64,000 nt of DNA from Psychrosphaera haliotis. Its GTDB lineage: Bacteria; Pseudomonadota; Gammaproteobacteria; Enterobacterales; Alteromonadaceae. Positions within the stretch are counted from its first letter, which is position 1. Each line of letters opens with the position of its first letter. The notes under the pieces are model-generated. The model did no database searches and was not told the origin of the DNA. It saw only the letters and a program-made list of their open reading frames with translations. The DNA lies in NCBI RefSeq assembly GCF_009728465.1, contig NZ_WOCD01000001.1, forward strand, positions 248,001 to 312,000, written 5' to 3'. The position numbers were made by a program, and so were the translations under genes. Below are positions 3,173 through 41,682 of this stretch, one piece after another.

Positions 3173-5350
3173 CTAGATTTCTTTGACGCCCATATTATAA
3201 AGGGTAAAGCCAAAGATGTCGGCGTACTGTTTAATTGTTTTGCTAACTGGTGTACCTGCGCCATGACCGGCATCAGTTTCAATACGAATTAAAACAGGGT
3301 TTTTACCTGCTTGTTTAGCTTGAAGCTCAGCAGCAAATTTAAACGAGTGAGCTGGAACAACGCGGTCATCGTGATCACCTGTTGTTACCATTGTTGCTGG
3401 GTATTCTACGCCTTTTTTCACGTTATGAACTGGCGAGTAACCTAGCAAATAATTAAACATTTCTGCATTGTCATCTGAACGGCCATAGTCGTATGCCCAA
3501 CCAGCACCGGCTGTAAATGTGTGGTATCTAAGCATGTCTAAAACACCAACTGCCGGTAATGCAACTTTAAATAACTCTGGGCGTTGCGTCATTACTGCAC
3601 CAACAAGAAGACCACCATTTGAGCCCCCCATAGCTGCTAACTTTTCTGACGACGTAATTTTGCTTTCGATTAAGTATTCAGCAGCGCCAATAAAGTCATC
3701 AAATACATTTTGTTTTTGCATTTGAGTACCAGCATCATGCCATTTTTTACCGTATTCACCACCACCACGAAGGTTCGCAACGGCGTAAACACCGCCAAGT
3801 TGAAGCCAAGCTGCGCGTGTTGAACTAAAGCCAGGTTGCAAACTTACATTAAAACCACCGTAACCATATAAAATAGTTGGATTAGAACCGTCTAGCTTAA
3901 GACCCTTTTTATGGGTAATAATCATAGGAACTTTAGTGCCGTCTTTTGACGTATAAAATACCTGTTTAGACTCGTAATTATCGCTATTAAATTTCACAGC
4001 AGACTTGTTATAAACTTCAGACTTACCAGACTTACCATCTAGAGAGAAAATAGTACGCGGGGTTTTGTAGTTACTAAACGAATAATAAACTTTAGATTGG
4101 TTGTCTTTACCATAAAAACCTCCTGCACTGCCTACTTCAGGAAGCGCGATGTCTCTTACTTTGTTGCCTTTAAGGTCAAATTGCTGGATTAAAGACGTCG
4201 CATCTTTCATGTATCGAGCAAATATGTAACCGCCGCCTTTAGAAACTGACAATACGTTTTCCGTTTCAGGGATCACATCAACCCAGTTTTCTGGTGATGG
4301 GTTGTTAGCATCTACTTTAACCACTCGTTTATTAGGTGCATCTCGGTCTGTTAAAAGTAAAATTGATTTACCTTTGTTTGCTAATAAACCAATGTCAGAA
4401 TTTGTATCATCAACTACCGATTTTAGTTTTGAGTTAGGACGACTTAAATCTTTAATTAACAACTTGTTGCCATAAGTAGAAACTGATGCTGATACTAATA
4501 AGTAACGACCGTCGCTCGTTACACTCGCGCCAACATATCTGTGTTTTTCAGCTTCTGTACCGCCATAAACTAACTTATCAGCGGCTTGTGATGTGCCTAA
4601 AGTATGGAAATAAAGTTTGTGCTGGTCTGTTTTTGCTGAAAGCTCACTGCCTTTTGGCTTGTCGTAACTAGAGTAATAAAAACCTGAATTTCCTACCCAA
4701 GAAATACCACTAAATTTAAGATCGACAAGATCATTACCAACTAACTTTTTAGTTTTTGTATTAATGATTTTCGCTTTGCGCCAGTCACTACCGCCTTCTG
4801 AAATAAGATAAACAGCGTAAGAGCCATCTTCAGAGAATACGATGCTCGACATAGAAACAGTGCCGTCTTCGCTAAACGAGTTAGGGTCTAAGAATACTTC
4901 AGCTTCGCCATCACCTTTCTTACGGTATAAAACGCTTTGGTTTTGAAGCCCGTCATTTTTATAAAAATAAGTGTAGTCACCTTCTACAAATGGCATGCCC
5001 ACTTTTTCATAATCTAATAACTCGCCTAATTGCTTTTCAATTTTAGCGCGGTAAGGAATTGAATCTAAATAACTATAAGTCGTTTTGTTTTGTGCTTTAA
5101 CCCATAACGCGGTTTCTGCACTCATGTCGTCTTCTAACCAACGATATGGATCAGCGACGTCTGTTCCAAAATAATTATCTACAACATCACCTTTTACAGT
5201 AGGTGGATATACAACAGGTGTGTAGTTTTCAGATACGGCCACTTTTTTAACTGCCGATTTAGCGTCTGAAGATTCATCAGTCACATTACAACCACTTAAA
5301 AGAACGCTAGACAAAATCGCCCCACTTAACATTAGTTTTTTATTTTTCAT
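3173..5350 (-). CDS. Prolyl oligopeptidase (family S9A), lipoprotein
   Basis: 725 residues, the normal length for S9A prolyl oligopeptidases plus an export signal. A lipoprotein signal peptide ends at LLSG-Cys21, so the enzyme is probably anchored in the outer membrane facing the periplasm. Residues about 50-450 form the beta-propeller gate. The C-terminal alpha/beta hydrolase domain carries the catalytic triad: Ser in GGSNGG, Asp in DHDDRVVP (about residue 660) and His696 in DAGHGAGTP. It should cleave short peptides after proline, feeding peptide uptake. It is monocistronic, with AAGGGAACA before the ATG. Confidence 0.93.
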
Positions 5351-5511
5351 TATGTTCCCTTTTCAAACGCAGCAGAAAAACCTGCCACAGATTGATATTT
5401 TTATAGTTTTGTTTACTTTAACGCAAAGCCTTAAACACGCCAACAATATAAGCCTTAGTTTTAGTTCATCATGCGGTTTTTCAGGATTGTTTGTATTTTA
5501 AATACTCGTAT

Positions 5512-6252
5512 TTAAGCAAAGATACGTTTTGATTCCGCCTTGTAACTTTTACCAATTTTTAGTTTAACTTCATTTAAAAGCGTAACGTGTTCAGAATCTA
5601 GCCCCACAACACAGTCATTTGCGACAATATATGACTTATGGATTTTACTAAACTGTGTCGGAGGTAGCATTTCTAAAATGCCTTTAAGTGTTGAGTTAAC
5701 GAGTGTAGCTTGGTTACGTTGCCAGACTTTTACGTAATTGCCGTAAGCTTCAAAGTAGGTAATGTCAGACAGCTCAAAACGCCTCAACTCACGGTCTACC
5801 TTCAAAACAATGTTCGATATTACTTCGTTTGTACCATCGTGAATTTCCTGGGTGTTTTCTTGGCTACTGTTATCACCATAAGTTAGGTTTGATAGTGTAA
5901 TTCTATCTCTCACCTTTTTAAGTCCATTGGCAAGTCTCTCCGCCGATACAGGCTTAACTAAGTAATCAGTGACGTCTAATTCAAAACCATCAACAGCGTA
6001 TTCTTGATAGGCACTTATAATGACTACCTGCGGGCGATTGGCTAATACTTTTAGTAATTCAATACCATTTAGCGCAGGCATATTTATGTCTAAAAATAAC
6101 AAATCAGCACTGTTATTGGCTAACCAAGCAAGCGCATCCGCTGGATGATAAAACTGAGCTAATACTTCTACATCTCCATGCTGCTTTAAGTGATGTAAAA
6201 CAACATCATGCGCGAGTGGCTCATCATCAATCAAAATGGCTTTAATAGTCAT
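5512..6252 (-). CDS. LytTR-family response regulator
   Basis: About 246 residues. The receiver domain (1-120) has DDEP acidic residues near the start, the phosphoacceptor Asp in LLFLDINMP, and a conserved Lys in DYLVKPV. The LytTR DNA-binding domain (about 145-246) opens with IVLKVDRELRRFELSDITYFEAYGN-type sequence and ends KIGKSYKAES. The ATG at 6252, which gives MTIKAILIDDEP, is preferred: it lies one base after the kinase stop, and homologues begin this way. An ATG at 6264 would overlap the kinase. It is phosphorylated by the kinase encoded just upstream, and the probable target is the divergent ABC operon. Confidence 0.92.
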   Translation of the reverse strand: MTIKAILIDDEPLAHDVVLHHLKQHGDVEVLAQFYHPADALAWLANNSADLLFLDINMPALNGIELLKVLANRPQVVIISAYQEYAVDGFELDVTDYLVKPVSAERLANGLKKVRDRITLSNLTYGDNSSQENTQEIHDGTNEVISNIVLKVDRELRRFELSDITYFEAYGNYVKVWQRNQATLVNSTLKGILEMLPPTQFSKIHKSYIVANDCVVGLDSEHVTLLNEVKLKIGKSYKAESKRIFA

Positions 6253-6253
6253 A

Positions 6254-7504
6254 TTAAACAACATCCCTATCGAGGTTAGATTCTATAGTTGCGTTTAACT
6301 TATCTAACTCTATGGTCAGTGTTGTTTGCCAAAGGTTGTACTTTTGCTCAGACTTTAACGTGTGTCCTTTTGGGTATAGCAAGCTTAAACGACGTTCTAA
6401 ATTTTCGAGACCAACCCCAGTATTTTCAGCGCCGTTGCTCTTAGCAATATTCTCACAAGCCACGTTTGCATTGATAGACGTGTTTGTGTTTGTGTTTGTG
6501 TTTGTGTTTGTGTTTGTGTTTGTGTTTGTGTTTGTGTTTGTGTTTGTGTTTGTGTTTGTGTTTGTGTTTGTTAGATCAAAGGTGTTTTCGCAAAAAAGAA
6601 CAAGCTTTTTATTATCACAACTTAACTTTATATTAATGATGGATTTGTTGCTCGCCCCTTTTCCTGCGTATTTAAAGGCATTTTCAACAATATTTATAAG
6701 CAACAGTGGTGGAATAACAGATTGAGAGTCGCTCTTTGAGTCTTGATTTTCAAACGGCCATTGCACCGACAATAGCGTTTCATCCGACAGCCTGATCTTT
6801 TGCAGAGCAATAAAGTCCTTTAAGTATTCAACTTCTTGTTCAACTTTCACCGTATCGTTTTGCCCTTCGTATACTGTATATCTGAGCAAATTAGATAACT
6901 GCATTACCATATCTGGCGATTTTTCAGACTTAGCTAAGGTTAGTGCATACAAGTTATTTAAAGTATTAAACAAAAAGTGAGGGTTAATTTGCTGCTGTAA
7001 TAACTTTAATTCAGTTAGTCGTTTAGAGGATTCAATTTTGCTCAGGTTAAGTTGTTGCTGTTGGCGCTCAAATGCCAGAATAACCGGAGTTGAAATAGCG
7101 AGAACAATAGCCATAAAGTGATAATTCGTTATCTCAAAAGGGTTATGATCCGCAGACGGTATTAGTGTGAATTCATGCTGGTTTAATGGAATCAACAAGC
7201 CCAAATATGAAAATAATGGAGTAACGATAACCAAACAACATATGCTCACCATCAGAAAAGCCAATACACCATGTTCTGCTAAAAAACGGCGAATAAACCA
7301 ATATCGATTCATTAAATATATAGCCCCAACAAGTCCTCCTAAAAACAAGAACTGCCAGAGATAAGATAAAAATTGCACGGGCGAATTTAAATTAGCGCCT
7401 ACATCAATTAGGGGCGTTAATGGTTGATTTTCCATAGGGTTTTCGTTGCTATTTAAAACACCGGCCATTATTACCGCCCACACTATAATCCCAAAGCTGA
7501 CCAA
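6254..7504 (-). CDS. LytS-type sensor histidine kinase with a 15-fold Thr-Asn insert
   Basis: 416 residues. The N-terminal 150 have about four membrane segments. The His-kinase domain follows (QQQINPHFLFNTLNNLY, phospho-His in PHFLFN), then the ATPase N-box (LLINIVENAFKYAG, about 266) and G2 box (GVGLENLERRL, about 366). Between them, at about 312-341, lie 15 Thr-Asn dipeptides encoded by a perfect hexamer array, in the region of the ATP lid. The start is uncertain: TTG at 7504 overlaps the previous gene by 56 bases, and ATG at 7468 or 7435 is possible. It may instead be joined to the upstream gene by a corrected frameshift. It partners the response regulator one base downstream. Confidence 0.85.
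   Translation of the reverse strand: MVSFGIIVWAVIMAGVLNSNENPMENQPLTPLIDVGANLNSPVQFLSYLWQFLFLGGLVGAIYLMNRYWFIRRFLAEHGVLAFLMVSICCLVIVTPLFSYLGLLIPLNQHEFTLIPSADHNPFEITNYHFMAIVLAISTPVILAFERQQQQLNLSKIESSKRLTELKLLQQQINPHFLFNTLNNLYALTLAKSEKSPDMVMQLSNLLRYTVYEGQNDTVKVEQEVEYLKDFIALQKIRLSDETLLSVQWPFENQDSKSDSQSVIPPLLLINIVENAFKYAGKGASNKSIINIKLSCDNKKLVLFCENTFDLTNTNTNTNTNTNTNTNTNTNTNTNTNTNTNTSINANVACENIAKSNGAENTGVGLENLERRLSLLYPKGHTLKSEQKYNLWQTTLTIELDKLNATIESNLDRDVV
6481..6570. repeat. Perfect hexanucleotide microsatellite (TGTTTG)15 inside the kinase gene
   Basis: Fifteen uninterrupted copies of TGTTTG on the plus strand, read as CAAACA on the coding strand. Any gain or loss of a unit keeps the kinase in frame and changes its length by one Thr-Asn pair. 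Confidence 0.97.
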
Positions 7505-7946
7505 GGCATTTAATGAAAAGCACCATGATAGCCACTTTGAGAAACTTGCTACTTGTAGCCTTTTGCCTTTGGACCGTTAGTATCCAAATTACACTAAACG
7601 CCATGGTTATCAGCCAACCTTGCACACTAAATAATGGGGTTTGAAATATCGTAAAATTTGAAAACAGCTGACTTCCAAAGCTTAATAAAAAAGCAGGATA
7701 AATAATGAAGCCCACTAACCAAAACAGCATGGAATGACGTTTAAGTTTTATTAGGTAACCCGACTTTAAATCGTTTTTTTGACATATTAGAACGTGGGAT
7801 AAATAGAGAGGGAGAGTTTCAATTGATAATTGTAGGAAAATACCAATGATGTCGCTCGCACTTTGAGAATGAAAAGTCATAAAACGAATATGAGATTCAA
7901 TCAGCACGGCGGCCAAAATTGGCAAAAGACAAAACAGAGTTTGCAT
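7449..7946 (-). CDS. Polytopic membrane protein of unknown function, possibly the kinase sensor part
   Basis: 165 residues with about five hydrophobic segments (near 1-22, 33-55, 72-92, 108-127 and 133-150). I recognise no family. It overlaps the kinase gene by 56 bases. Its last 20 residues after LFIKCLG turn polar, whereas dropping one base at the CC of TGCC near 7505 would continue a hydrophobic helix straight into the kinase reading frame. So it is either a separate coupled membrane sensor protein or the N-terminus of the kinase split by a one-base insertion. Confidence 0.55.
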   Translation of the reverse strand: MQTLFCLLPILAAVLIESHIRFMTFHSQSASDIIGIFLQLSIETLPLYLSHVLICQKNDLKSGYLIKLKRHSMLFWLVGFIIYPAFLLSFGSQLFSNFTIFQTPLFSVQGWLITMAFSVIWILTVQRQKATSSKFLKVAIMVLFIKCLGQLWDYSVGGNNGRCFK

Positions 7947-8074
7947 AAGAGTCCCTACTAAAAAAAGTCCAGTTTTGTAGATTAGTACGAAAACTTCAAA
8001 ATATAAGTGACGAACTTACCGAGTTTTATGACGAAAGTAAATTGTTACAAAAGTTAGGCCTTTAAAACTATGTA

Positions 8075-8133
8075 TTTGTCATCTAAGTCATTATCGTTAA
8101 ACCGTTTGTCATTTATAAAAAGCACTTTGTCAT
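8075..8133 (+). promoter_or_regulatory. Probable LytTR operator with three TTTGTCAT elements
   Basis: TTTGTCAT occurs at 8075, 8105 and 8126. ACCGTTTGT at 8101-8109 fits the general LytTR half-site W-M-M-GTT-N-R-K perfectly. A second, weaker copy (GCACTTTGT, two mismatches) starts 21 bp later, two helical turns away, the usual direct-repeat spacing for LytTR regulators. The element lies between the LytTR operon and the divergent ABC operon. Confidence 0.5.
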
Positions 8134-8199
8134 GTACGAATTTACAACATTGTTTTACACGATAAAGTTAATTTACTGTGAAATCTAACAAGGATTTGT

Positions 8200-9076
8200 A
8201 TGCTAACTTTATCTAATGTAAATAAAACTTATCGCGATGGCACTCAAGCATTAAAAAACATTACTATTGATTTTCCCACTGGCATGGTGGGCCTACTCGG
8301 GCCTAACGGCGCTGGTAAATCTACGTTAATGAGAACCATTGCAGGCCTTCAAAGCGCCGACAATGGAACAATCACATTTAATGATATTGATGTGTTAAAC
8401 AATCCTGACGAATTGCGAAAAACACTGGGTTATTTACCGCAGGAATTTGGCGTGTATCCAAACATGTCATGTATAGCACTGTTAGAGCACATGGCGATTC
8501 TAAAAGGGTTAACACCGACTCAGCGTCAGCAGCAGATACCGGAACTGCTCGAGTTAACAAACCTGGCAAAATCCGCAAAAAAATCGGTGGCCAACTTTTC
8601 TGGCGGAATGAAACAACGTTTTGGAATCGCACAAGCGCTGTTAGGTGATCCTAAGTTAATTATTATGGACGAACCAACGGCCGGGTTGGATCCAATGGAG
8701 CGAGAAAGACTTAACAACGTTTTGGTTAACATAAGCAAAGATAAGCTTATTTTACTTTCAACACATATTGTTGAGGACGTTGAAAACCTTTGTAATCACG
8801 TTGCCTTGCAGTTTAACGGTGAAATTTTAGTAAATGGTGAAATTCCAGAGTTACTAGCGCCGTTAGAAGGATGTGTGTGGGAATCGTCTACTTCACTCGA
8901 CACACAAACACCCAATGGCGAAAATGGTTCAGCTCATATTCTTAGTAAAAGTTTTACCTATGGCAAGCCTCATTACCGTATTTACAGTGAAAAGCAACCA
9001 ACCGAAGACGCTTCTTTAACAAGGACGACATTACAAGATCGTTACTTTTTTGAACTTGCTTTAAAGGTAGGTTCAC

Positions 9077-9087
<11 letters not shown>
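8200..9087 (+). CDS. ABC transporter ATP-binding protein
   Basis: 295 residues. Walker A GPNGAGKST (about 35-43), signature FSGGMKQR, Walker B LIIMDEP and the switch His in STHIVED are all intact. This is the DrrA/CcmA-like export type with one nucleotide-binding domain, followed by about 80 less conserved C-terminal residues. AAGGATTTGT precedes the ATG. Its last 11 bases overlap the start of the large permease/peptidase gene, so the two are translationally coupled and form one transporter. It diverges from a LytS/LytTR operon that probably controls it. Confidence 0.92.
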
Positions 9088-12553
<3,466 letters not shown>

Positions 12554-33059: not shown

Positions 33060-33087
33060 TTGAATGTTGAATGTTGAATGTTGAATG
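33060..33087. repeat. Tandem heptamer TTGAATG, four copies
   Basis: Four perfect TTGAATG units just after the ABC-F stop codon and before its terminator. Confidence 0.95.
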
Positions 33088-33090
33088 TTG

Positions 33091-33124
33091 AAAAAAAGGA
33101 GCTTAATTGAAAGCTCCTTTTTTG
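33091..33124 (+). terminator. Rho-independent terminator after the ABC-F gene
   Basis: Stem AAAAGGAGCTT/AAGCTCCTTTT with a 6-base loop, A-rich before and T-rich after. It could work in both directions and so may also end the convergent MFS gene. Confidence 0.9.
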
Positions 33125-41539: not shown

Positions 41540-41626
41540 TTTGTTCCTTTTTAAATTTTGGCTTTAGTTTTGGCTTTGCCTAGGTTTAAACTTAACTCTA
41601 AACGTTGGTTTTCGTCTAAGCTGCAG

Positions 41627-41682
41627 TTTTCAGTTTTCAGTTTTCAGTTTTCAGTTTTCAGTTTTCAGTTTTCAGTTTTCAG
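41627..41682. repeat. Tandem heptamer TTTTCAG, eight copies
   Basis: Eight perfect units, preceded by CAG. The array begins inside the last codons of the serine hydrolase gene; on its coding strand CTGAAAA repeats supply the Ser-Glu-Asn tail and the TGA stop. Confidence 0.97.

Follow-up and report, generated by a model that had tools for sequence, protein, structure and literature searches.

Does a run of Thr-Asn repeats in the ATP lid of a histidine kinase act as a genetic dial on kinase activity, or is it a product of replication slippage that the protein tolerates? The question is raised by a locus of Psychrosphaera haliotis, within a window of 64,000 nucleotides (the whole stretch of DNA that was analysed), where a LytS-type kinase gene carries a perfect hexamer array (Table 1). 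The sequence-only reading of this locus had favoured a dial: slippage would change the length of the lid, and perhaps activity, without stopping translation. Our analysis suggests that slippage tolerated by the protein is the more probable of the two.

We characterized the array itself with Tandem Repeats Finder, which reported one array of GTGTTT (plus strand) at 6480-6571, with a period of 6, 15.3 copies, 100% matches and no indels. This is the same array as the fifteen perfect hexamers that had been noticed by eye at 6481-6570. As had also been read from the letters, it is situated between the N-box (ENAFKY) and the G2 box (GVGLEN), and its unit length of 6, a multiple of three, keeps the reading frame. 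With such a unit and a location inside an ORF, it differs from classical on/off phase-variable arrays, which have a non-triplet unit in a coding region or lie in a promoter. Three first-order Markov shuffles of this genome (400 kb) contained no array of any unit of 2-9 bases; therefore, the hexamer array is not due to chance. A genome-wide pattern search found no second site for the 4-copy form of GTGTTT, which rules out an array family copied to other places; the reversed-pattern control for this search is the same repeat read backwards, hence no control. An antisense ORF at 6312-6725, with a (Phe-Val) run, was rejected as a gene, its open frame being its sole support. No conspecific isolates were found among the 8 genomes in the genus.

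Table 1. Coordinates of the features discussed in the text (positions in the window unless a locus handle precedes them).
Feature	Position	Strand	Remarks
LytTR response regulator, kinase partner	5512-6264	-	PF00072 and PF04397; adjoins the kinase in 6/6 contexts
C-terminal part of LytS-type histidine kinase	6254-7504	-	Membrane helices, His-box NPHFLFN, N-box, lid, G2 box; frame open up to 7576
ATP-lid region, N-box end to G2-box start	6419-6667	-	83 residues (280-362); coordinates from ORF numbering
Hexamer array	6480-6571	-	(Thr-Asn)15-Thr, 31 residues, residues 312-342 of the 416-aa ORF 6254-7504
N-terminal part of kinase gene	7449-7946	-	165-aa ORF in a different frame; fused to the kinase in relatives
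ABC transporter ATP-binding subunit	8200-9087	+	Named by eye from sequence; divergent neighbour in 6/6 contexts
Membrane protein with peptidase M1 domain	9077-12553	+	Follows the ABC subunit; PF01433, 1.3e-8; neighbour in 6/6 contexts
(ACA)16.7 polyglutamine array, in-frame, in the M1 membrane protein	11155-11204	+	Gap at this place in the G005 orthologue alignment
DnaX array	L151:14222-14343		Perfect 13.6-copy 9-mer, (Val-Glu-Ala)n, between domain III and alpha-binding domain matches
3'-end array	33060-33092		
3'-end array	41624-41682		
3'-end array	L145:16579-16637		
3'-end array	L157:6621-6729		
3'-end array	L157:12428-12479		
3'-end array	L158:1272-1327		
3'-end array	L160:1803-1890		
3'-end array	L213:1746-1767		
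3'-end array	L223:5998-6022		
3'-end array	L226:7462-7713		
3'-end array	L226:8878-8978		
3'-end array	L228:6158-6232		

The assignment of the host protein to the LytS-type kinases was borne out by a match to PF06580 (His_kinase) of 90.7 bits, against a cut-off of 25.2 (E 7.4e-26), and by the LytTR response regulator that adjoins it. A contig scan for relatives yielded 4 near orthologues (L031-L034), then 76 more distant loci, judged by title to be mostly from Bacteroidota; 76 family genomes had a match, and the best 30 loci of these were fetched. Within the genus, a kinase match below 1e-40 was absent from 5 of the 7 other genomes. The kinase part of the family member G350 (L127) is identical to that of Rheinheimera lutimaris (L031), which makes Alteromonadaceae the probable family of the present genome. 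The phospho-accepting residue of the PF06580 domain is the His in NPHFLFN, and this residue (H176) is invariant in 33/33 sequences, the window kinase included. Across the same 33 sequences, E274, N275 and K278 of the N-box and G363, G365, L366 and N368 of the G2 box are invariant as well. No separate HATPase_c match was obtained in the kinase ORF at 1e-3. A profile of the 33 sequences matched a single PDB entry at 0.01, the GanS kinase domain (6swj, E 3.2e-30), and GanS was also the best Foldseek match of the kinase model (6swk, E 1.3e-7); the two kinases have a DHp and an ATP-binding core in common. The canonical G1 motif, DxGxG, is common in HATPase domains and lies outside PF06580. It is not found in the kinase, where the corresponding place (6581-6592) is mostly C-x-N in the window and in the orthologues, with N307 as the only residue invariant in the 33 sequences, a trait that the window shares with its whole subfamily. 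A VanS paper does not decide whether ATP binding is weak when the G1 box contains an Asn (PMC10017428).

We next compared the length of the lid with that of its relatives. The lid was measurable in 82 of 87 ORFs with a His-box; the length comparison comprised 74 distinct strings including that of the window, 33 of them from orthologue loci. The check proposed earlier, whether the lid is normally short in homologous kinases, gave a positive answer: the 73 other distinct lids span 38-52 residues, against 83 in the window, with 38-52 in the other 32 distinct orthologue lids and 38-45 in the 41 more distant ones. In none of these 73 lids does a di- or tripeptide occur in three tandem copies. Subtracting the 31 array residues from the window lid leaves 52, a length equal to the longest in the family. 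Even without any array, lids of different lengths and freely diverging sequences occur among the orthologues; therefore, this loop tolerates change. GanS has a lid of about 60 residues (by eye) and no tandem array, compared with 38-52 in the subfamily and 83 in the window, and thus long lids also occur in nature. For the corresponding segment, a study of solved kinase ATP-binding domains gives 39-61 residues (PMC10017428). The 83-residue lid exceeds this reported range, and the insert may well alter kinase function.

The AlphaFold2 model of the kinase ORF (mean pLDDT 81.8) shows both membrane helices and a catalytic core in the 416-residue part. In this model, a strand at residues 300-308 is followed by a lower-confidence short helix at 311-316 and, further on, by a helix at 366-376, while pLDDT is below 50 at residues 319-321 and 323-360. 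The greater part of the array thus forms a low-confidence loop in an otherwise confident fold, and since this loop lies between the strand and the G2 helix, the array is located in the ATP lid, inside the ATP-binding domain, where it had been placed originally; the objection foreseen for the earlier reading, a model with the run outside that domain, does not arise. In the G005 orthologue, the strand-to-helix segment comprises residues 306-316. The 31-residue insert is probably a floppy or disordered loop: the low pLDDT fits disorder, but it may also be a modelling limit on repeats.

Are there known systems in which an array of this kind modulates a protein? In-frame coding repeats are known as tuning elements in the Thr-Gly repeat of Drosophila period and in the triplet change of E. 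coli ahpC. In both, the length of a coding repeat changes without a frame break, as it would in the kinase array, and in both function was tested. A closer counterpart exists in MutL, which shares the GHKL fold with histidine kinases. The MutL genes of Salmonella and E. coli contain a 6-bp repeat (LALALA) in "a region that forms a lid over the ATP-binding pocket", and this repeat is presented as a genetic switch (PMC2955026); like that of the kinase, this is an in-frame hexamer array in the coding region of an ATP lid. MutL has three units, against 15 here, acts in mismatch repair and not as a sensor kinase, and is reported to switch function upon copy-number change (PMC2955026); a comparable effect of the kinase array would be hypothetical. 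The initial impression that such an insert is not known from any LytS-type kinase thus needs qualifying: the MutL hexamer is a precedent for the lid (PMC2955026), while no histidine kinase with an in-frame lid repeat is named in the titles and abstract openings listed by searches of open-licence PMC papers.

We then took a census of the genome, in a sample of 864 kb (about 27% of the genome) in which perfect arrays with units of 3-12 were counted, genes being plain ORFs; single-base runs were left out of the totals and touching arrays were counted apart. The sample contained 33 perfect arrays with units of at least 3 (unit 3, 1; unit 6, 8; unit 7, 16; unit 8, 6; unit 9, 2), and none with units of 2, 4 or 5. 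Mismatch repair ignores loops of more than about 4 bases, which would explain the missing unit sizes 2, 4 and 5. Both mutS and mutL are present with open frames, and a loss of mismatch repair as the driver of the arrays is therefore unsupported. Six congeners had only 8 arrays in 1,200 kb: the single-contig genomes G005 and G007 contributed 4 and 1, respectively, from 400 kb each, and G001-G004 contributed 3 from a combined 400 kb. The difference between 33 and 8 is significant (binomial p = 5e-7; 1.7e-5 with the window left out), and the excess over the congeners survives the merging of touching or neighbouring arrays, which leaves 27 places, 19 outside ORFs and 8 coding (p = 2e-5; without the window, 8e-4). 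On the 27% of the genome sampled, this is thus a genome rich in long simple repeats, with units of 5-11 nt in excess over both chance and relatives. Genomes of this type were described by Mrazek 2007, as summarised in PMC4679880: repeats of 5-11 nt abound in them, 7-mers are the most frequent, and coding DNA contains units that are multiples of three. The present genome resembles them in that 7-mers are the commonest here too and triplet-multiple units are found in coding DNA. It differs from the Beggiatoaceae, where one heptamer recurs at many places (PMC4679880); here the units differ from array to array.

The arrays were unevenly distributed between genes and the rest of the genome. Location in an ORF that continues for 150 aa or more outside the array was found for 8 of the 11 arrays with multiple-of-three units, against 0 of the 22 others, all 7- or 8-mers (Fisher p = 1.2e-5), a split that is partly built in because a stop-bearing array would end any ORF that it entered: each of the 22 non-triplet units has a stop codon in some phase of one strand or the other, and 11 have one on both strands. 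Coding arrays are thus mostly multiples of three, with the same stop-codon caveat. By Pfam boundaries, six of the eight coding arrays fall between matched domains or outside them, namely those of the kinase, the M1 protein (polyglutamine), DnaX (VEA), a carboxyltransferase fusion (SG), a DUF2063 protein (TQ) and T2SSB (QT). The array of an MFS transporter (EQ) is inside the overall span of its MFS Pfam match, and the last one belongs to a 1,377-aa protein that has no Pfam match. No bias toward regulators is evident among the eight.

We also examined the position of the non-coding arrays relative to genes. Twelve of the 19 places are within 40 nt of a gene 3' end, compared with 621 of 6,903 random intergenic 50-mers (p = 8e-9), and 4 of 19 are near 5' ends, compared with 741 of 6,902. 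Only 12/19 are nearer to a 3' than to a 5' end, against 3,232/6,653 at random. This 3'-end clustering may be partly circular because genes were taken as plain ORFs and the units carry stops.

What might the kinase control? In all six contexts examined (L031-L034, G005 and G007), the kinase and its regulator are divergent from the ABC subunit and the M1 membrane protein. This conserved arrangement makes control of the transporter a reasonable inference, and the ABC transporter is a probable target of the two-component system. Across 3173-12553, identity to G005 is 92% for the adjacent prolyl oligopeptidase, as against 45-57% for the kinase, the regulator and the M1 protein and 71% for the ABC subunit; this contrast suggests that the kinase-transporter module is faster-evolving or was exchanged.

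The kinase gene is split in the window as deposited. A single continuous gene, which is a trait of the subfamily and not of PF06580, was found as one open frame of 501-589 aa in 29/29 other fetched family loci; the window has an open frame of 440 aa. Its N-terminal part is the separate ORF 7449-7946, which is 33% and 34% identical to the orthologues of G005 and L032 at the expected place. Since 7576 is where the open C-terminal frame starts, and the likeness of the N-terminal ORF to its G005 counterpart runs to about 7574, the frame changes at approximately 7510-7580. Internal stops are present in seven weaker, unfetched family rows (e.g. G241), and thus broken kinase copies may occur elsewhere. 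Among proteins with a best match of at least 45% identity, 3 of 62 conserved proteins taken from G005 and G007 are divided between two frames here, compared with 0 of 131 when the comparison was reversed or run on controls (p = 0.03; p = 0.24 against the 58 reverse comparisons alone). These other breaks are located in L141 near 2902 and in L143 near 2065 and 8733. A homopolymer-type sequencing error at the kinase break is unsupported, the longest run in 7449-7590 being of 4 bases; near the three other breaks it is of 3 bases. The kinase frame change may be a real lesion or a sequencing error.

How, then, is the array best explained? We consider it likely that it is an in-frame microsatellite generated by replication slippage in a repeat-proliferated genome and kept because the flexible tip of the lid tolerates it. 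Slippage would make arrays of 6-9-base units widely in this genome; selection would then purge genes of frame-breaking arrays, while those that preserve the frame would persist in loops and linkers. The kinase array would survive at the tip of the ATP lid, a flexible loop whose length already varies in relatives, with a 6-base unit that never breaks the frame. Its unit number would still be unstable, and its effect on ATP binding or autophosphorylation is expected to be near-neutral, or at most mild. Slippage, combined with selection against frameshifts and stops, suffices as an explanation because such arrays are many, the in-frame ones being mostly in unrelated ORFs and the 7- and 8-mers outside. 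A selected tuning dial, in which two-residue steps of the lid would set ATP affinity or autophosphorylation and thereby grade the expression of the ABC transporter across a population of cells, seems unlikely. The array does sit in the lid with a unit that keeps the reading frame, but the 73 other distinct lids are without a repeat, the orthologue lids already range from 38 to 52 residues and similar arrays occur in unrelated proteins. A dial would also suit a kinase that belongs to a conserved divergent module with a transporter, and in MutL the copy number of an in-frame 6-bp repeat in the ATP-pocket lid switches function (PMC2955026); however, MutL has three units, and in a probably disordered loop with 15 units a change by one should have less effect. 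By analogy, the histidine kinase might work as a rheostat, with a slipping hexamer, in the part of the fold that carries the MutL switch, setting lid length and hence a range of kinase activities and of transporter expression within a population, perhaps together with the polyglutamine array, a proposal that we likewise hold to be doubtful. The presence of that second in-frame array in the probable target protein could hint at a locus-specific cause, which would count against plain tolerance.

Two further explanations depend on the state of the gene and of the assembly. If the kinase was already broken near 7510-7580, the array may have grown under weakened selection, as the short open frame (440 aa against 501-589 in 29/29 fetched loci), the N-terminal part in the other frame and the internal stops of the seven weaker rows could suggest. 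We find this improbable, since the 416-residue part keeps the residues that are invariant in the other 32 sequences and retains predicted membrane helices and the catalytic core, both domains of the partner regulator are found, and sequencing indels are an alternative cause of the break, in line with the 3/62 versus 0/131 split proteins. That the array was inflated or invented by the assembly or consensus is very improbable. This assembly, in 5 contigs, has a completeness of 88.86% and the frame-split proteins already mentioned, and the exact copy number of the kinase array may be wrong; yet the array is letter-perfect, and across the sample unit length separates the arrays inside ORFs from those elsewhere, a pattern not obviously expected of an artefact.

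The tolerated slippage product that we favour and the dial have different consequences. If lid length tunes activity, a reversible genetic rheostat would be added to what is known of two-component signalling, and the array would offer a natural length series for the effect of the lid on histidine-kinase catalysis. If it is not a dial, the locus would be a clean example of slippage sorted by reading frame and protein flexibility, with frame-neutral arrays mostly in loops and linkers and frame-breaking ones outside genes.
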